Shown piece after piece: positions 1 to 21,387 of a stretch of 26,703 nt of DNA. The DNA is from a virus. Where the stretch lies: positions 1 to 26,703 of IMG/VR virus record IMGVR_UViG_3300049215_000162. The stretch is one strand, 5' to 3'. Each line of letters begins with the position of its first letter. Position 1 is the first letter of the stretch. Both the position numbers and the translations under genes were made by a program. Under the pieces are notes generated by a model. That model had not been told where the DNA came from, did not search any database, and was given only the letters and a program-made list of their open reading frames with translations.

Positions 1-199
1 AATCGGAATGATCCAGATAATGCATAAAGTTCTCATAATAAAGCTTATATGTTTCTCGCTTTTCTTCTTTATTACCTTCTTCAAACAAAAGTTCGTATAG
101 CGATTTAGCCATAGTGTCGAATACATGAGCACCGACAAGCAATCGTTTATCTGAAGATAACGACTCAATCAATGTTTTCTTAAATTCTTCGTATGTCAT
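1..199 (-). CDS. Unknown protein, N-terminal part, cut by the window edge
   Basis: The reading frame opens with ATG at 199 and stays open to the window edge, giving 66 residues that begin MTYEEFKKTLIES. The start overlaps the stop of the helicase-loader gene by four bases (ATGA at 199-196), which is typical translational coupling and the main reason to believe the gene. The visible part is charged and helix-prone, with a Glu/Lys-rich stretch near residues 48-54, and shows no transmembrane segment or motif I recognise. Its place directly after initiator and loader suggests a replication or early accessory function, but this is inferred from position only. Confidence 0.7.
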   Translation of the reverse strand, partial: MTYEEFKKTLIESLSSDKRLLVGAHVFDTMAKSLYELLFEEGNKEEKRETYKLYYENFMHYLDHSD

Positions 200-990
200 C
201 TATGCAACACCGTAATTTTTATGTTTTGCTCGTCATTCAAACGGGAATAAATCGACTTTCCAAAAGTGTCCTGAAGCTGTCCCCAATTGTAAGAGGTTGT
301 AACAATCGTTGGCAAAAGATTCGCTGTGCGGTAATCAAAGAATTCGAAAAGCATCTCTTTGTGCCATTCCGAGGAAGAGTGTTCGCCTAATCCATCAAAC
401 GCAATTAGCCTTTTTGATGCCATGTTTCTCACAGCCTCATGCTGCAAGCGCCCACTATTGATCGCCTGCTGAATATTCTCAAAGAAACGATTAGCCCTAA
501 GGTAGAAAAATTCTTGCTTTTGACTAAGGAAATGGTTAGCTAAAGCAACACAAAGAAAGGTCTTTCCTGTCTTTGGCATCCCCTGCACGATCAGAAAATT
601 CTCAGGCTTCTTTATCCATGCGCTGATAAGGCTTTGATGGTTTGGCTCTGCCCTCCATTTTGCAAGGGATACTCCGTAAAACTTAGGTCCAATAGAAAAA
701 ACTTGGGAGGCATCTTCAGAATCTTTCGTTTCTTTTTTATCTTTCTGCTGATAGCTAACATCATCGGTTAAACAAGAAGAAGTACCACAAAACCAGAGCC
801 AACCATCTTCTTCGCGGAAGATGTGACCTAAATTGCCTTGGCATCTTGGGCAAACATGTCCGAAAATCTTAGCTGCTTTACCTCCCGTGGGCTTGTGATC
901 GGAGATATCCCCAATCTGTAGTGGATTCGGTAAAATCTGATAATTCCCTCGATACAGAATTTTTCTTACTTCTATGCTTGGTGCTGCCAT
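196..990 (-). CDS. DnaC/IstB-like helicase-loader ATPase with N-terminal zinc-finger-like motif
   Basis: Probable AAA+ ATPase that loads the replicative helicase at the phage origin (264 residues). With the start used here, a CPRC...C...C cluster lies near residues 47-73 and could bind zinc. The Walker A motif GMPKTGKT is at 137-144, and a Walker B-like RLIAFDGLGEH follows at 194-204. A TTSYN segment near residue 232 fits sensor-1. I chose ATG at 990 because AAGGAG lies seven bases upstream; an ATG nine codons earlier (1017) has no comparable site. The gene begins inside the initiator gene, overlapping it by 113 bases, an initiator-then-loader order like lambda O-P. The family assignment is firm; the loader role is inferred from family and neighbour. 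Confidence 0.85.
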   Translation of the reverse strand: MAAPSIEVRKILYRGNYQILPNPLQIGDISDHKPTGGKAAKIFGHVCPRCQGNLGHIFREEDGWLWFCGTSSCLTDDVSYQQKDKKETKDSEDASQVFSIGPKFYGVSLAKWRAEPNHQSLISAWIKKPENFLIVQGMPKTGKTFLCVALANHFLSQKQEFFYLRANRFFENIQQAINSGRLQHEAVRNMASKRLIAFDGLGEHSSSEWHKEMLFEFFDYRTANLLPTIVTTSYNWGQLQDTFGKSIYSRLNDEQNIKITVLHR

Positions 991-1759
991 TGGATAACTC
1001 CTTGATCTGATTTTCAATAATAGATTTTATATAACTTATTGGGTCTGAGCCGCCTATTTTAGGGTTTTGCACTTTAAATGTCTCTATCGCTGTTTCAATT
1101 TGCTCAAATGTGTACATTTCCTTAAGCAAAGATTCATGCAGGCGCTTGTAGGTAATAAATGCTGCACCAGGTGATCTTTTTGTCCTGAAGGTCAACTTGG
1201 GTTCATGCTCTTGTTCCATTTCTTCCTTTTGGTTTTTTATATTAGACCGACCGACCCGCCCGATAGGGCGGCCCCCCTTTTGGGGGGTAGGGGGGTTAAC
1301 TAAATATCCTTCTTTTCTTTCTTGTCTTTCTTCTTTTGTGTCCCACTCTTGTCCCACTCTAGTCTCACTTCCTGTCTCACTATTTTTAATGAAACCATCG
1401 TATACTATAGTGACGATTGTTTTAATGTGTCTCACTTCCTGTCTCACTTTTTGGCATCTTTCCAATTTCTGCAAAAATCTATGAATGAAATTTTTCTCAA
1501 ACTTTATGATTTTTTCTGGCTGTTTTTCATCTCGCCAATCTGAAGGCCTGGAATCATTACACCAATCAGCGATTTGGCGATAAGTGGTCAATAATTGACC
1601 TGGATGAACCACAATCATTTTCCCATGGTCATCAAGTTCTAAGATTGAAAAAGCCATTCGATGGTAAAGTTCCTCAAAGACATGTCTTTCTTTTGCACTG
1701 AATTCACGCCACTGTGGATCTGTTCTAAGGGATCTTGGGAGTCTGATATAACCTGACAC
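878..1759 (-). CDS. Phage replication initiator (DnaD/O-like, winged-helix N-terminus)
   Basis: Probable origin-binding replication initiator of 293 residues. The N-terminus (MSGYIRLPRSLRTDPQW) and the helical segment that follows to about residue 110 resemble the winged-helix domain of DnaD/O-type phage replication proteins. Residues about 104-185 are low-complexity and charged, a linker. Residues about 185-260 form a helical C-terminal domain (YKRLHESLLKEMYTFEQIETAI) of the kind seen in loader-interacting regions. The start is GTG at 1759 with AAGG seven bases upstream; I see no better ATG. The linker-coding DNA holds iterons and GC hairpins listed separately, and the last 113 bases also encode the start of the loader. 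The family call rests on pattern and context, not on a catalytic motif. Confidence 0.7.
   Translation of the reverse strand: MSGYIRLPRSLRTDPQWREFSAKERHVFEELYHRMAFSILELDDHGKMIVVHPGQLLTTYRQIADWCNDSRPSDWRDEKQPEKIIKFEKNFIHRFLQKLERCQKVRQEVRHIKTIVTIVYDGFIKNSETGSETRVGQEWDTKEERQERKEGYLVNPPTPQKGGRPIGRVGRSNIKNQKEEMEQEHEPKLTFRTKRSPGAAFITYKRLHESLLKEMYTFEQIETAIETFKVQNPKIGGSDPISYIKSIIENQIKELSNGSTKHRSKKNSVSRELSDFTESTTDWGYLRSQAHGR
1231..1448. other. Candidate intragenic replication origin inside the initiator gene
   Basis: From right to left the region holds six GTCYCACT iterons (1340-1448), then a 30-base almost pure pyrimidine tract (1309-1339), then two adjacent perfect GC hairpins: CCCCCC/GGGGGG (1272-1287, loop TTTT) and CCGCCC/GGGCGG (1256-1271, loop GATA). 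An AT-rich patch follows at 1231-1245. All of it encodes the linker of the initiator. Lambda ori lies at the same place in gene O, with iterons beside an AT-rich, strand-asymmetric segment. The function is inferred from this architecture. Confidence 0.6.
1340..1448. repeat. Six iterons, consensus GTCYCACT, 4 + 2 arrangement
   Basis: Copies lie at 1340-1347, 1351-1358, 1362-1369, 1374-1381, 1429-1436 and 1441-1448, spaced 11-12 bases apart, about one helical turn. The two pairs 1362-1381 and 1429-1448 are identical over 20 bases (GTCTCACTTCCTGTCTCACT). The repeats are translated in three different frames of the initiator (KVRQEVRH, SETGSETR, RVGQEWDT), so the DNA, not the protein, is what repeats. 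Between the two groups lies the inverted repeat ATCGT/ACGAT at 1397-1416. Confidence 0.85.
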
Positions 1760-3883: not shown

Positions 3884-4075
3884 ATGGAATTACAAGTTTT
3901 ACTTTGGATATTGGGAGGAGGATTTGCAGGGACTTGGGGTCTCTGCATATTCTTCATGAGTGTCTGCATGACAGACATTAGAGAGATACGCAAAGAGATA
4001 TCCGAGCTGCATCATTGCGTTAAGGATCATCATGCGAGGCTGTCGGTCATTGAAAAAGTAATGGAAGGTGAATGA
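3884..4075 (+). CDS. Small single-pass membrane protein with C-terminal coiled coil
   Basis: 63 residues from ATG 3884 (GAGG seven bases upstream; longer in-frame starts lie inside the previous gene). Residues 4-28 (VLLWILGGGFAGTWGLCIFF) form one transmembrane helix; residues 32-60 are an amphipathic coiled coil ending HARLSVIEKVMEGE. The layout matches five other small genes in this window (7473, 8365, 16274, 16495, 16713), and the HxRLxxIE ending is also found in the 16274 product. The stop overlaps the ERF start. Anchored coiled-coil proteins of this size can be exclusion or lysis-associated proteins; there is no specific evidence. Confidence 0.65.
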   Translation: MELQVLLWILGGGFAGTWGLCIFFMSVCMTDIREIRKEISELHHCVKDHHARLSVIEKVMEGE

Positions 4076-4704
4076 TGAGGACTAGCGAACAGATCAACGA
4101 GATAGCCAAGGCGATGTCCTTGGCACAGTCAGAAATGAAGCCCGCGGCTAAAGATTCGGTTAATCCGCATTTTAAAAGCCGTTACAGTGACATTTCTTCC
4201 ATATGGGAAGCCATACGTGGGCCAATGACTGCCAATGGACTCACTATTTGGCAGAACGTAACCACAGAAGAAGGCTTTGTTTGTATTACAACACGCATCG
4301 TCCATTCTTCCGGTCAGTGGGTTGAATTTGGCCCCCTTAACGTTCCTTTATCTAAAAAAGATGCTCATGGCGTAGGCTCAGCTATTTCTTATGGCAAGCG
4401 TTATGCTCTATGCGCGGCCGTGGGTGTTGTTTCCGGTGATGAAGACGATGATGGTAATGCTTCAAAAGCAACACCTCCTCCTCAATTCAAGATGACCCCA
4501 GAAATGATTAGAGAGCTAAATTTAATCATTGATGAATGTGGTGAAGATTACAGCAAGAAGGTAATGGACGTCTTACACGGCTTCGCTCCTCCAATTCGCT
4601 CTTTTGGGGAATTAACAATTGAGCTATATGAAAGGATTAAATCGGCAGCGATAAAAGAACGCGATAAACGAAGGTCAGGAAATGGGAATGAAACGCCCTC
4701 CTAA
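4072..4704 (+). CDS. erf: ERF-family single-strand annealing recombinase
   Basis: 210 residues, matching the ERF superfamily that anneals single strands in phage recombination. Family segments are visible in order: NEIAKAMSLAQSEM (9-22), NPHFKSRYSD (31-40), then DAHGVGSAISYGKRYAL (97-113), followed by an acidic stretch SGDEDDDGN. The C-terminal 70 residues are variable and helical, as usual. The start overlaps the membrane gene's stop (ATGA); ATG 4072 or 4075 are both possible, with GAAGGTGA upstream. The natural partner is the YqaJ exonuclease at 5530, from which it is now separated by an inserted HNH gene. The HNH start lies inside the last 23 bases of this gene. Confidence 0.9.
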   Translation: MMRTSEQINEIAKAMSLAQSEMKPAAKDSVNPHFKSRYSDISSIWEAIRGPMTANGLTIWQNVTTEEGFVCITTRIVHSSGQWVEFGPLNVPLSKKDAHGVGSAISYGKRYALCAAVGVVSGDEDDDGNASKATPPPQFKMTPEMIRELNLIIDECGEDYSKKVMDVLHGFAPPIRSFGELTIELYERIKSAAIKERDKRRSGNGNETPS

Positions 4705-5545
4705 ATCTTTAGTAGGTTTAAAAGTGGGGAAGTTGACAGTTGTCAAATTTTCCCATCAAAGCGCGTCAGGGCTTTATTGCTGGGAAACACAATGTGAATG
4801 TGGTAATCCAAGAATTATCTCTACGTCTGAATTAAATCGCGGTAGAGCGGCTGTCTTATCTTGTGGTTGCTCTAAATATAAAAGATCCTTAGTTGGTAAT
4901 AAATATGGAAGCCTTACCGCTCTTAAGATCTCCCATAAAAGAGGTTATAGATATTATTGGCTGTGTAAGTGTGATTGTGGAAATGAAAAATCAATTGCTG
5001 AAGAATGTCTTACAAGAGGCAATACTCTTACTTGTGGATGTAGCCGCCAATATAGACGTCTTCTACTAATATCCAGAACAAAAGAAAGGCTTGTTGAGAA
5101 CATGAAAGTAACCCCTGAGGGTTGTTGGGATTGGCAGCGAGGTAAAGATAAAAATGGGTATGGCACATGTGGGATGGGATATGGTGATCAGAGAGCGCAT
5201 AGATCCTCTTACAGAGTTTTTAAAGGATCAATACCAAAAGGTATGTTTGTCTGTCATCATTGCGATAATCCATCATGCATAAATCCTGAACATTTATTCC
5301 TAGGAACTAATAAAGACAATATTCTTGACGCCTCTTCTAAGGGTAGATTAGCTGTGGGGCCTGACAAAAGGAAAGGAAGTCTCGGTGAAAAAAACAGAAA
5401 AGCAAAACTTAATGACGATAAAGTTAAATGCATACGTTTTCTTTGCGATAATGGCTATAAAAAATCAGAAATTGCAAATTTTTTTGGAGTATATAAATCT
5501 AGTATCGAAAGTATTGCAAGGAGAAAAACATGGTCGCATATCTAA
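4682..5545 (+). CDS. HNH homing-type endonuclease with duplicated zinc-binding N-terminus
   Basis: 287 residues. Two copies of a strand-rich Cys module lie at 8-64 and 70-121 (each with CxCG and a later CGC, probable zinc binding). The HNH domain is at 141-222, with CWDW, GYG, AHR (172-174), CHHCDNPSCINPEHLFLGT and KGR. A C-terminal HTH at 245-285 (KSEIANFFGVYKSSIESIARR) would bind DNA. The layout matches free-standing phage homing endonucleases and the related gene at 20181-20858. It overlaps ERF by 23 bases and the exonuclease by 16, and its last codons contain the ribosome site for the exonuclease. ATG 4682 or 4688 are possible starts. Active-site residues look intact. Confidence 0.88.
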   Translation: MGMKRPPKSLVGLKVGKLTVVKFSHQSASGLYCWETQCECGNPRIISTSELNRGRAAVLSCGCSKYKRSLVGNKYGSLTALKISHKRGYRYYWLCKCDCGNEKSIAEECLTRGNTLTCGCSRQYRRLLLISRTKERLVENMKVTPEGCWDWQRGKDKNGYGTCGMGYGDQRAHRSSYRVFKGSIPKGMFVCHHCDNPSCINPEHLFLGTNKDNILDASSKGRLAVGPDKRKGSLGEKNRKAKLNDDKVKCIRFLCDNGYKKSEIANFFGVYKSSIESIARRKTWSHI

Positions 5546-6381
5546 TTCAAGGGACGGAAACCTGGAAAGCGTGGAGACTAAAGGTAATTGGCGCGTCAGA
5601 CTGCCCCGCAATAATGGGTGTATGCCCCTACAAAACCCAATATCAGCTCTTCGAAGAAAAGATGGGTCTGCGCGAACCCCCCGTTAACAGCGCGATGCGT
5701 TATGGCTCTGAGAATGAAGAAAAGGCACGTAACGAGTTCATCGATATGTTAGGGGTTATCGTTGTTCCTTATGTAACAGTGCATCCCAAGATCCCCTACA
5801 TGGCCGCTTCTTTAGATGGTCGTAGCACTGACGGAAAGGTGATCGTTGAGCTAAAATGCAACGGTGACAAGAACCACAACATAGCCAAAGAGGGAAATAT
5901 CCCGCCGAATCATTATGCGCAGATGCAGCACCAAATGGAGGTTTGCGGATTACCTGACTGCTATTATTTTTCTTACCAGCCAGGCGATACAGTCATGATT
6001 AAGGTTAAAAGGGATCAAGGTTACATTGATGATCTTTTGAAAAAGGAGGCGGAATTTTGGGAATGTATAGAAAACTTCACCCCTCCCCCGTTAACCAAGC
6101 GCGATTATCAATTCAAGGCAGACCCAACATGGTGCGATATCGCGTCCGACTGGGTTGCGACCAGCAAAGAATTAAAGAAGCTCAAGGAAAAGGAAGAAGA
6201 TCTAAGGGATGCATTAATTTCACTGTCACACGGGCAGAGTTCGATCGGTGGAGGCATAAAGCTATCCAAAAGGGTCAGACGGGGTGCTGTGAATTATGAT
6301 GCGATCCCACAGCTTGATGATGTGGATTTGAATAAATATAGAAAAGATAACGTTGAATATTGGAACATCGTAGAGGGGTAA
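5530..6381 (+). CDS. YqaJ/lambda-exonuclease-type recombination nuclease
   Basis: 283 residues of the YqaJ viral recombinase fold, which digests double-stranded DNA ends to give single strands for ERF. Motifs are seen in order: IGASDCPAIMG (20-30), the GSENEEKARNEF helix (59-70), AASLDG with metal-binding D96, and VELKC with E107 and K109, the D...ExK signature of this nuclease fold. A QMQHQM segment near residue 136 is typical of the family. The C-terminal third is a charged helical region (LKKLKEKEEDLRDAL). The ribosome site AAGGAG lies inside the end of the HNH gene. Together with ERF it forms a two-component recombination pair. Confidence 0.9.
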   Translation: MVAYLIQGTETWKAWRLKVIGASDCPAIMGVCPYKTQYQLFEEKMGLREPPVNSAMRYGSENEEKARNEFIDMLGVIVVPYVTVHPKIPYMAASLDGRSTDGKVIVELKCNGDKNHNIAKEGNIPPNHYAQMQHQMEVCGLPDCYYFSYQPGDTVMIKVKRDQGYIDDLLKKEAEFWECIENFTPPPLTKRDYQFKADPTWCDIASDWVATSKELKKLKEKEEDLRDALISLSHGQSSIGGGIKLSKRVRRGAVNYDAIPQLDDVDLNKYRKDNVEYWNIVEG

Positions 6382-13571: not shown

Positions 13572-15971
13572 TTAGGTTTGGCCAAATATAATATATGTAA
13601 CGGTACTGACATCAGCGGTCTGCGTGCTCGCAGGTGTGCCAAGTATTAGACTAGTGATGGTAAATGAAGCTCCCGCGCTTATAGTATACGTGAGTTCCCC
13701 AAGTGTCACTGATCCGTTTGCTGCTGACCTGCTCAAGAATATCCGATCGGTAGCCGCGATACCTGTACATGCGACTGTTACCGTTCCAAGTACTAAGACT
13801 GCACTTCCAATAAAGTCGGTCACAGCGCCGCCATTATATGAAATCTTTGTGGCAACGCTGGTTAAATTAACGTTACCCGTTAGATTGACCCCTCCAGAGC
13901 CTGCCTGAATCGTAGTAGTTGATGTTGTATTAGTAGAACCTAGAGTTACAGTTTTAGCCGCGCCACCCGTTCCAATTGTTAAAGTTGTGGCCGCTGCATC
14001 TCCACTGATGGTTATTGCGCCCGTTCCCGTGGCCAAGGTAAAGATGCCGTTAGTGGTTGTGTGGGTAGTTCCGCCTGTTCCGGTATTTATGTTAACAGCT
14101 GTTGCGCCTGTTACATTTCCAATAGTGATAGTTTTAGCGGCGGCATCTGTACCAACGTTGATTGCGCCCGTGCCAGTCGAGAGACCCCAAGAGGCATTGG
14201 TTGTTGTCCATAAGTTAGCGCCTGTTCCGCTGTTATGAGTAATCGCGGTGGCACCTGTTACGTTGCCAACTGTGATAGTTTTAGCGGCGGCATCTGTACC
14301 TATATTAATCGCTCCAGTCCCAGTAGATAATCCCCAACTTGCGTTAGTTGTTGTCCATAGGTTAGCCCCTGTACCAGAATTGATTGTAATAGCCGTCGCA
14401 CCTGTTACGTTGCCGATTGTGACGGTATGGGCAATCGCGTTTGTGCCAATATTGACTCCAGAAGTACCCGCATTAAGAGAGACTGGGGTTGCGCCTGTTG
14501 AGTTACCAATATTGATGGTATGGTCAGCTGCGTCCGCACCGATTGAAATCGTTCCAGTTCCTGTAAGAAGAGAAAAAATTCCATTCGTTGTCGTTAGGGT
14601 TGTTCCGCCTGTACCTGTATTAATATTAACAGCGGTGGCACCTGTTACGTTGCCGATTGTGACGGTATGGGCAATCGCGTTTGTGCCAACGTTTAACGCT
14701 CCCGTTCCCGCATTTAATGAAATTGCTGTAGCACCTGTTGAGTTGCCAAGGGTGATTGTATGAGCTGCTGCGTCAGTACCGATATTAATTGCGCCTGTTC
14801 CGGAAACCAAGGCGAGAGTTGCGTTGGTGGTTGTCCAAGTTGAACCGCCTGTACCTGCATTAATATTAACGGCTGTAGCACCCGTTACGTTACCAATCGT
14901 GATAGTCTTGGCGATTGCCGTACCGATATTGATGGCTCCAGTTCCAGAATCTACAGTTACGCTTGTTCCACCTGTTTGGTTACCGATAACAACTGGTTGC
15001 GCAATCGCATTTCCAGAAATAGAAGTCCCTGCTGTACCCCCATTTAATACAACTTGAGTGGCACCTGTAGAGTTACCCAACGTAATAATTCTTGCAGCTG
15101 CCCCAGTGCCTACATTGATATTTTGTGCTACGGCATCATTCCCAATCCCAATGACACCCGCCGAAGAATTAAGTTCCAAAACACCTGATGAATCAATCAG
15201 AACCGTATCAGCAGAATTCAGGATAATATCACCCGTTCCAGTTGAAGTTACTGTAAAACTGCCCGTACCCGTATTGACAGCTATTGCGGTGGCACCTGTT
15301 ACGTTGCCGATTGTGATAGTTCTAGCTCCTGCGCCTGTACCGATATTTACAGCGCCTGTAGATGCGTCTGAAGCTAAATTTAATGCTGTGGCGCCCGTTG
15401 TAATTGTAGCGCTAGCATCACCTGTTATTAGACCTGTAAAGTGAGCCGTAGTTCCCACAACTGCTGTAAATGTACCAGCGGCGGGTGTAGTTCCTCCGAT
15501 TGCGGGAGGTGCTGCAAAAACTGACGCTAAGTTACTTGGTTGAACAGCTAAAGCCGTAACACCAGGAACTGTAGCCGTTCCAGCTACTGCCTGAGCATTT
15601 GTTGCAAGGTTTGTAATACCTGTAACACCTGTTTGAGCAATTGGAGCGCCTGCAATAGCTACAGCATCAACATAATCTTTAATTTCTTTTACTGAAGGAA
15701 CTAATGTCGTAGAAGAAGCATCGCCAACTATTGTAGAAGACAGTTGTACAATACCTGCCGTTGTTGTTGTGGCATAAGCATTGCCCCCACTTATCCATAC
15801 GCCAGAACCTGTGGTTTCATATATAATAGAAGGAGAAGCGCTGTTATCCTGCCAACGAGATCCTGGAATCATTTTATCATTTGTTGTAGGGGCTCTTTGT
15901 GCATTGACATATGTTGGAAAGGTGTTTGGGTCTACGCCATCTATATCTGAGCTATTGTAAAATGATGTCAT
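13572..15971 (-). CDS. Repeat-rich tail fibre protein
   Basis: 799 residues from ATG 15971, where AAGGAG lies upstream; the frame extends further but without a ribosome site. Residues 1-140 form an attachment region (FPTYVNAQRAPTTNDKMIPG, then VPSVKEIKDYVDAVAIAG) of a kind common to phage fibres. Residues about 205-690 are tandem beta-strand repeats: a 31-residue unit of the type GTGAINIGTDAAAHTITLGN plus STGATAISLNA, and a 49-residue version with an extra 18 residues (GTGGTTLTTTNGIF-like). The last 100 residues are a distinct globular end (IAATDRIFLSRSAANGS). The protein is probably a trimeric fibre shaft with a tip for host recognition. Antisense reading frames here are shadows. Confidence 0.85.
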   Translation of the reverse strand: MTSFYNSSDIDGVDPNTFPTYVNAQRAPTTNDKMIPGSRWQDNSASPSIIYETTGSGVWISGGNAYATTTTAGIVQLSSTIVGDASSTTLVPSVKEIKDYVDAVAIAGAPIAQTGVTGITNLATNAQAVAGTATVPGVTALAVQPSNLASVFAAPPAIGGTTPAAGTFTAVVGTTAHFTGLITGDASATITTGATALNLASDASTGAVNIGTGAGARTITIGNVTGATAIAVNTGTGSFTVTSTGTGDIILNSADTVLIDSSGVLELNSSAGVIGIGNDAVAQNINVGTGAAARIITLGNSTGATQVVLNGGTAGTSISGNAIAQPVVIGNQTGGTSVTVDSGTGAINIGTAIAKTITIGNVTGATAVNINAGTGGSTWTTTNATLALVSGTGAINIGTDAAAHTITLGNSTGATAISLNAGTGALNVGTNAIAHTVTIGNVTGATAVNINTGTGGTTLTTTNGIFSLLTGTGTISIGADAADHTINIGNSTGATPVSLNAGTSGVNIGTNAIAHTVTIGNVTGATAITINSGTGANLWTTTNASWGLSTGTGAINIGTDAAAKTITVGNVTGATAITHNSGTGANLWTTTNASWGLSTGTGAINVGTDAAAKTITIGNVTGATAVNINTGTGGTTHTTTNGIFTLATGTGAITISGDAAATTLTIGTGGAAKTVTLGSTNTTSTTTIQAGSGGVNLTGNVNLTSVATKISYNGGAVTDFIGSAVLVLGTVTVACTGIAATDRIFLSRSAANGSVTLGELTYTISAGASFTITSLILGTPASTQTADVSTVTYIIFGQT
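13890..15340 (-). repeat. Tandem 93/147-base repeats in the fibre gene
   Basis: The shaft is built of 93-base (31-residue) and 147-base (49-residue) units. Some copies are near identical in DNA: 14399-14450 and 14639-14690 share more than 50 consecutive bases. Exact repeats so close invite slippage or recombination and would change shaft length. Confidence 0.75.
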
Positions 15972-16035
15972 AAGGATCTCCTTGTTGTTTGAATTTGAAA
16001 TTATTACATAAGATTTTTTTTTGAAAGGAAAATCA

Positions 16036-16064
16036 TTGAAATTAATTAGGGTGTTATGTATAAT
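16036..16064 (+). promoter_or_regulatory. Sigma70 promoter of the plus-strand island
   Basis: TTGAAA (16036-16041) and TATAAT (16059-16064) are 17 bases apart: five of six and six of six matches. The palindrome ATGATCAT (16063-16070) overlaps the -10 and the start region and could be the operator of the RHH protein encoded immediately downstream. Confidence 0.8.
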
Positions 16065-16090
16065 GATCATATAGTGACAAAAGGCATTAA

Positions 16091-20180: not shown

Positions 20181-20858
20181 TTAAAGCTCCTTAGTCCAAT
20201 TTGTTTTCCAGGATACTCCATTAAGTATCTTTGCGATACATGTTTGACCTACTTCAAACTTCAACTGAAGTTCTTTTCTTGTCATTCCATGGGAATTTAA
20301 TTTTTTTATCTCTTCAACTTGCTCAAAAATCAATTTATTTCTTCTTTTGCCTAATTTCCTATTATCATATCTTCCTTTATTTGCTCCATCCTTAACATTA
20401 TCCTTTTGAGTACCAAGGAAAAGATGTTTAGGATTACAGCAACTTGTCATATCGCACTTGTGACAGACCTTCATTCCTTTAGGAATATCACCAATATAAA
20501 CTTCCCATGCTATGCGATGAACTAATGAATATTTTCTTTTATATCTTAAACTGCCATATCCTTGTCTATGCTTACTTCCTTGCCATATCCAACATTCATT
20601 TACATCAATATCTATATTTTCTTTTATTTTATTTTTTATTACTTCAAAATAGTCTTCCCTGTCATATGAGCGCTTTGTTTTATATTCATAACATCCACAA
20701 GATGCTTTAGGGCTTGTATTAAGAAATGTTTCAGTAACAATTTTCTCATTTCCACAATCACATTTACAGAGCCAGGTTTCTGGTTTATAAGGGTTTTTAA
20801 CACGTTTAGTGATTTTCGTAACTGTAACCAATCTTCCAAATCTAATTTTTTCTATCAT
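20181..20858 (-). CDS. HNH homing-type endonuclease in the virion operon
   Basis: 225 residues from ATG 20858, chosen because GGAGGTAAAT lies directly upstream; the open frame extends to 20957 but overlaps the upstream gene. A zinc-like Cys module (CKCDCGNEK...CGC, 31-56) is followed by the HNH core: CWIW, GYG, VHRIAWEV (113-120), CHKCDMTSCCNPKHLFLGT and KGR (161-163). A C-terminal HTH (MTRKELQLKFEVGQTCIAKI) ends the protein. It is a relative of 4682-5545 with one instead of two Cys modules. It sits between two virion genes, and its last codons carry the ribosome site of the next gene. A hairpin sequesters its own ribosome site. Confidence 0.88.
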   Translation of the reverse strand: MIEKIRFGRLVTVTKITKRVKNPYKPETWLCKCDCGNEKIVTETFLNTSPKASCGCYEYKTKRSYDREDYFEVIKNKIKENIDIDVNECWIWQGSKHRQGYGSLRYKRKYSLVHRIAWEVYIGDIPKGMKVCHKCDMTSCCNPKHLFLGTQKDNVKDGANKGRYDNRKLGKRRNKLIFEQVEEIKKLNSHGMTRKELQLKFEVGQTCIAKILNGVSWKTNWTKEL

Positions 20859-20862
20859 ATTT

Positions 20863-20889
20863 ACCTCCGTTTGGAGGTCTATTATATCA
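20863..20889 (-). promoter_or_regulatory. Hairpin over the HNH ribosome site, with a promoter whose start falls inside it
   Basis: On the minus strand ACCTCC (20878-20873) pairs with GGAGGT (20868-20863) around AAAC, hiding the Shine-Dalgarno of the HNH gene in read-through mRNA. Directly upstream lies TGATATAAT (20889-20881), a perfect extended -10, with a predicted start at about 20874-20872, inside the 5' arm or loop. RNA started there would lack the arm and leave the ribosome site free. The -35 (TTCGCT, 18 bases away) is weak. Confidence 0.6.
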
Positions 20890-20913
20890 CGCCATATGCC
20901 TTTTAGCGAAGCT

Positions 20914-21387
20914 TTAAACTTCTTGACAGTACTCAATGAACGCAAACCCACGATCAAAATTCTGTGGAGATGTTATAACTAATTGCGTGGCGTTCATTAG
21001 AACGTCATCTCCTGTTATTCTGCGTGCTGTAAAAGTACCTGAATTGGTTCCTGCAACCCATAAGTCGATCAATGTAAAATTTGCATCAAATGTAATGCCA
21101 TGATTAATTCCTGGATTTACGCCCGCTGCCAAAGGGCCAACATTCACAACCTTTCTCAAAACGCTTCTAAATTGCTGATTCGAACCCGATAAACCTGTTC
21201 CAGGTATGAATTGCCATCCGCTAATCAATTCTTCATCAAGATACCAACCAATCGTTCTAATATTAACAGCATTAGATATTTTTTTAAGATGTTCCACGAG
21301 AAACGGGCGTGCGTCTTCCCATGTTTCTGGTACTGTATCATATACGGGAACATAGCTTTCGAATACCTGACTTGTTTGTGATGTCAT
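20914..21387 (-). CDS. Virion structural protein (tail)
   Basis: 157 residues. The N-terminal half is helical/aspartate-rich (VPVYDTVPETWEDARPFLVEHLKKI-type), the rest beta-rich (GINHGITFDANFTLIDLWVA) with an ending RGFAFIEYCQEV. I associate such sequences with podovirus tail-associated proteins but cannot name a family. The start overlaps the preceding stop by one base. It is followed by the HNH insertion. Confidence 0.6.
   Translation of the reverse strand: MTSQTSQVFESYVPVYDTVPETWEDARPFLVEHLKKISNAVNIRTIGWYLDEELISGWQFIPGTGLSGSNQQFRSVLRKVVNVGPLAAGVNPGINHGITFDANFTLIDLWVAGTNSGTFTARRITGDDVLMNATQLVITSPQNFDRGFAFIEYCQEV

Follow-up and report, generated by a model that had tools for sequence, protein, structure and literature searches.

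A predicted replication origin of helically spaced direct repeats nested in a phage initiator gene

In phage lambda and the Stx phages, gene O carries the replication origin in its middle part, with the iterons beside an AT-rich tract, and extra iterons make the O protein longer by 13 residues (PMC7466680). In lambda, dimers of O bind iterons that are inverted repeats of about 19 bp; the iterons of plasmids, by contrast, are repeated directly, follow the helical phase of the DNA and are recognized by monomers (PMC5043065).

We analysed a linear virus record of 26.7 kb with a GC content of 40% (this whole stretch is called the window), in which an initiator gene contains six copies of an 8-bp word. 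As in lambda, the predicted origin lies within the initiator gene, the iterons stand beside easily melted DNA and the loader gene comes next (PMC7466680, PMC5043065). Unlike the inverted iterons of lambda (PMC5043065), those of the window are asymmetric 8-bp direct repeats at 11–12 bp. An earlier sequence-only reading had called the locus a lambda-like origin; the mid-gene position and the neighbouring loader bear this out, but the iterons do not, and an origin of the strict lambda type, with inverted repeats of about 19 bp, is not what the window contains. The iterons resemble those of plasmids P1, F and RK2 in being direct and in helical phase (PMC5043065), but they are located inside the initiator coding sequence. 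As read from the DNA, the window origin combines the lambda location with plasmid-style iterons, and we therefore name it an HK022/P22 O-type initiator-gene origin, not a strict lambda ori. Plasmid iterons usually measure 17–22 bp, and the 11–12 bp steps of the window are shorter.

The structural genes of the window form a podovirus-like set, and an ERF/YqaJ recombination module is also present, with the genes for an ERF-type annealing protein and a YqaJ/RecE exonuclease as close neighbours at 4072–6381; among named phages, Bdellovibrio phage phi1422 contains the best relative of the exonuclease. Two related HNH-type endonuclease-like genes (4682–5545 and 20181–20957) occur in this single small genome, and HNH genes from Bacillus phage Slash and from T7-like (Kayfunavirus) phages match the DNA at 5221–5323 with 75–82% identity, which suggests a mobile homing endonuclease. 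The long protein encoded at 13572–16070, with repeated NIGT..A.TITIGN.TGATA motifs and DNA repeats of 147 and 240 bp, is probably a tail fibre or spike.

The initiator gene of the window and its iterons

The features of the predicted origin and its two genes are as follows.

878–1759, minus strand: replication initiator gene (ORF; phrog_2514, E=1.4e-7; hhalign to the family containing HK022 O, E=1.1e-8)
196–990, minus strand: DnaC-like helicase loader gene (phrog_50, E=3.5e-26; IstB Pfam, E=6.9e-12)
1429–1448, minus strand: iteron block A, two AGTGAGAC copies 12 bp apart (exact repeats; kept in the relative L016)
1382–1428, minus strand: AT-rich spacer from block A to block B (sequence; family distances)
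1340–1381, minus strand: iteron block B, AGTGAGAC, AGTGAGAC, AGTGGGAC, AGTGGGAC (exact repeats in linker-coding DNA)
1298–1339, minus strand: purine tract of the coding strand (pyrimidine on the plus strand) directly after the array (98th percentile of the gene for purine, 96th for instability)

The initiator gene begins with a GTG codon at 1759, with AAGG just upstream, and encodes an N-terminal winged helix (DnaD-like, phrog_2514), a linker and a C-terminal helical region, in that order; an AlphaFold run on the initiator with two sequences was uninformative (pLDDT 38.7). The loader gene starts with ATG at 990 and overlaps the 3′ end of the initiator gene, and its phrog_50 match at 196–990 agrees with the earlier reading that a DnaC-like loader adjoins the initiator gene. 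The same order, initiator then loader, is found in phages iA2 and Palmer.

The word GTCYCACT occurs exactly at 1340, 1351, 1362, 1374, 1429 and 1441 on the plus strand, with start-to-start steps of 11, 11, 12, 55 and 12 bp, and nowhere else on either strand of the whole window. Shuffled sequences gave a mean of 0.88 copies per window and never reached six. On the coding strand the six copies, which span 1340–1448, read AGTGRGAC, an asymmetric word in direct repeat. The 20-mer GTCTCACTTCCTGTCTCACT is present at both 1362–1381 and 1429–1448, 67 bp apart. The six iterons at 11–12 base spacing and the exact 20-base tandem pair, both reported from the sequence alone, thus stood on re-analysis. The same reading had assigned all iterons to the linker, which holds for the four copies at 1340–1381; the pair at 1429–1448 encodes VRQEVRH, where the DNA-binding domain ends (residues 104–111, likely the wing). 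In the coding direction, the block A pair is followed by a 55-bp step between the nearest iteron starts across the spacer, then by the four sites of block B at steps of 12, 11 and 11 bp, and then by about 40 nearly pure purine bases.

The iterons lie in coding-strand frames 2, 2, 0, 0, 2 and 1 and encode, in turn, KVRQ, EVRH, SET, SET, RVGQ and EWD, and shuffling of synonymous codons yielded at most four AGTGRGAC copies in 5000 trials. These results agree with the previous view that selection on the protein is insufficient to explain iterons read in three frames.

The pyrimidine tract noted beside the iterons was also recovered: its best 40-mer, at 1311, ranks in the top 0.04% of window 40-mers. 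The purine tract at 1298–1339 is the likely unwinding region, judging from its composition and predicted stability. The sequence-only reading had further included two perfect GC hairpins in the origin:

1256–1271, no strand assigned: GC hairpin 1, CCGCCC-GATA-GGGCGG (exact 6-bp stem)
1272–1287, no strand assigned: GC hairpin 2, CCCCCC-TTTT-GGGGGG (exact 6-bp stem)

Both stems are exact, but the hairpins are absent from L016, and their stability does not exceed that of dinucleotide shuffles (z = -1.3 as DNA and -0.8 as RNA). As they are neither conserved nor unusually stable, we rejected them as part of the origin; they may represent a short palindrome inserted into the linker. GC skew, which has its minimum at 2920, where gene direction also flips, was likewise rejected as evidence for the origin because of this confounding.

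Family placement and the relative L016

The initiator matches phrog_2514 (E=1.4e-7), which carries the PHROG name 'DnaD-like helicase loader'. The helicase-loading label is a putative annotation, and a distinct DnaC-like loader gene adjoins the initiator in the window. A two-sequence profile of the window initiator and L016, compared with a 19-relative profile headed by HK022 O, gave an hhalign match (95.6%, E=1.1e-8) spanning the whole N-terminal domain. The tblastn matches of another relative, L194, were the O proteins of HK022, HK620 and HK630, and the HK022 record annotates its gene O as P22 gp18-like. The family profile also matches GntR-type winged helices in the PDB (8pqm, E=2.3e-4). 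By these profile matches, the window gene product is a predicted DnaD-like phage replication initiator with a DNA-binding domain. No relatives of the initiator or the loader were found among IMG/VR or GTDB contigs by peptide-seeded searches, nor did tblastn with the initiator find one among named phages.

HK022 gene O and other P22 gp18-type genes share the homologous N-terminal winged-helix domain with the window initiator, and HK022 gene O has two site pairs 55 bp apart, equal to the spacer of the window. The two differ in that HK022 uses a GATTACCA-type word instead of AGTGRGAC, and in that a DnaB-like helicase gene comes next instead of a DnaC-like loader. The phrog_2514 initiators of Staphylococcus, Listeria, Bacillus and Vibrio phages are alike in family, array place and phase-locked spacers, but repeat word and copy number are particular to each.

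L016 is the only close relative of the window initiator in the collections searched (34.7% identity over 144 residues, E=3e-15). It has five recognizable sites with steps of 12, 67, 12 and 11 bp, so that its spacer differs from that of the window by exactly 12 bp (67 versus 55), and both values are preferred distances of the family. Among residues identical between the two proteins, the same codon was used at 12/12 positions inside the iterons versus 26/47 outside (Fisher p=0.0024), a comparison that on its own is selected, not unbiased, since L016 was retrieved by its iterons. In this pair the iterons were kept while residues drifted, as the sequence-only reading had expected, and the pattern recurred in generalized form in most of the unbiased family sample. 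The replisome organizer of FP_Brigit has its C-terminal region alone in common with L016 and lacks an iteron array, indicating that the C-terminal region is separable from the iterons.

Arrays and spacer phase across the family

Members of phrog_2514 from Pseudomonadota, Bacillota and a third phylum were drawn blind to repeats, and clusters of repeated 8-mers were scored against codon-order shuffles. In this unbiased sample, significant clusters were present in 22/38 initiator ORFs versus 1/81 neighbour ORFs. The sole positive neighbour, from L208, is probably the initiator itself, because its length equals that reported by the family search for the true match. About two fifths of this first sample gave no significant array; some of these cases were picked ORFs that are not true family members, and others (e.g. 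L186 and L196) truly lack an array. In the sample of named phages, 21 of 26 initiator genes contained one. The repeat words differ by member (GTAACAAA, CAACCACC, AAGGGCCA, AACAAGCA and others), and the place of the array is constant, covering the last part of the winged helix and the linker that follows. Block A mostly lies just before the ITI.NY..YQ wing strand, and its DNA thus probably encodes the part of the protein that touches DNA. Members L188–L193 and L200 have a period of 21–24 bp instead of 11–12 bp and do not follow the two-block layout; the L193 array runs through all frames.

AGTGRGAC as a specially widespread word was rejected, as a reversed control word found 40 loci versus 36; loci of the reversed word also included initiator-like genes with arrays. 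Among other loci, L142 contains a winged-helix-like initiator outside the phrog_2514 matches with the same AGTGAGAC word (linker SETVSET...). In L011 and L033, prim-pol/AAA replication genes have AGTGGGAC arrays towards their 3′ ends, possibly origins embedded in another replication gene family; in L030 and L032, AGTGGGAC arrays adjoin a terminase small subunit ORF or occupy its start and could be packaging sites.

The recurrent layout consists of an upstream group of sites in wing-coding DNA, a spacer, an array at 11–12 bp and easily melted DNA. The 80 bp after the array reached at least the 95th instability percentile of the gene in 16/23 members versus 4.4 expected, where the best 40-mer in the 80-bp stretch was taken and the null was treated alike. 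In the window and L016, this low-stability DNA is a purine tract.

Across the family, spacers cluster at 44–45, 55–57, 66–69 and about 79 bp. In the first set of members with 11–12 bp arrays, the second group lay at 45, 55–57 and 66–68 bp. Two held-out sets were then used: six further genome loci and 26 named-phage initiators, including HK022 gene O, those of Staphylococcus phages SA7, HSA84 and StB27 and Listeria phage A006, and others from Vibrio, Pseudomonas and Lactobacillus phages. Held-out arrays were defined without reference to the second site group, and the nearest upstream distance was measured; the values were 35, 56, 56, 57, 57, 66, 66, 67, 67, 67, 68, 68, 69, 79, 79, 79, 81 and 91 bp. 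The period and phase taken from the first set predicted these distances (V-test p=6.6e-9), with a fitted period of 11.7 bp and about equally good fits from 11.25 to 11.75. The distances showed no preference modulo 3, which argues against codon structure as the cause of spacer constancy. A conserved wing length could explain part of this constancy, although indels in the protein would give 3-bp steps and not gaps of a helical turn. The gene of L288 (phage Lc-Nu) has sites at its positions 150, 217, 282 and 349, and the steps of 67, 65 and 67 bp hint at more than two phased groups. The open papers searched described the lambda and Stx origins but not the two-block phase rule, which is weak evidence of novelty.

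Taken together, we consider it likely that family members carry private iterons in the DNA of their own wing and linker, separated by a whole number (about 4, 5, 6 or 7) of periods of about 11.3–11.7 bp, in phages of both Gram-negative and Gram-positive hosts, and that each such gene comprises a DNA-binding domain and its own site, changing together.

Predicted origin activity and its alternatives

With a probability of roughly 0.87, we read 1298–1448 as the replication origin of the phage, contained in the gene for its initiator; initiator-bound iterons would open the DNA there for helicase loading, and the phage of the window most likely begins DNA copying at the six repeats. From the arrangement of sites and genes, we infer initiator binding, unwinding, loading and origin activity in the following form. 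The winged-helix domains of the initiator would bind the six directly repeated AGTGRGAC sites, probably at one domain for each turn of the helix and all from the same side of the DNA. The 55-bp step would keep blocks A and B in helical register, so that both could be brought together. The resulting nucleoprotein complex would open the adjacent purine-rich, low-stability DNA, and the C-terminal part of the initiator, with the DnaC-like loader, would recruit the replicative helicase of the host.

Alternatively, the repeats might be operators that allow the initiator, or a different protein, to repress transcription or to limit its own synthesis, with the true origin elsewhere. Plasmid iterons can double as control sites, and a weak promoter-like match overlaps block A. 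However, the sites are distant from the gene start, at 310–420 bp within the coding sequence, across the family the array is followed by easily melted DNA, and characterized lambdoid origins occupy the same position (PMC7466680); we regard the operator reading as improbable. Binding by a host or phage regulator unrelated to replication appears less probable still, as different initiators come with different words at a constant place in their genes, a pattern expected if the product of each gene reads the repeats. Finally, the reading that the repeats reflect a linker protein of repetitive or low-complexity sequence is equally improbable and already contradicted: linkers are compositionally biased and some relatives with a 21-bp period (L188–L192) repeat in one frame, but copies in the window and in L193, L203, L204, L219 and L222 cross several or all three frames, identical codons within the iterons of the window and L016 exceed the background, and spacer distances do not favour multiples of three.

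As a single origin, that of the window is of a kind already known, and it adds a new repeat word from a phage without a close sequenced relative. The phase-locked, word-swapping architecture of the family may be the part that a specialist would not expect. In uncultured phage genomes, the initiator gene by itself becomes sufficient to predict the origin, and the spacing rule suggests that the initiator probably assembles along a single face of the DNA, each helical turn taking one domain. Each such gene would provide a DNA-binding domain matched with its target, making the evolution of winged-helix specificity directly testable, and the family, if the rule is true, would constitute a large natural set of matched protein–site pairs.
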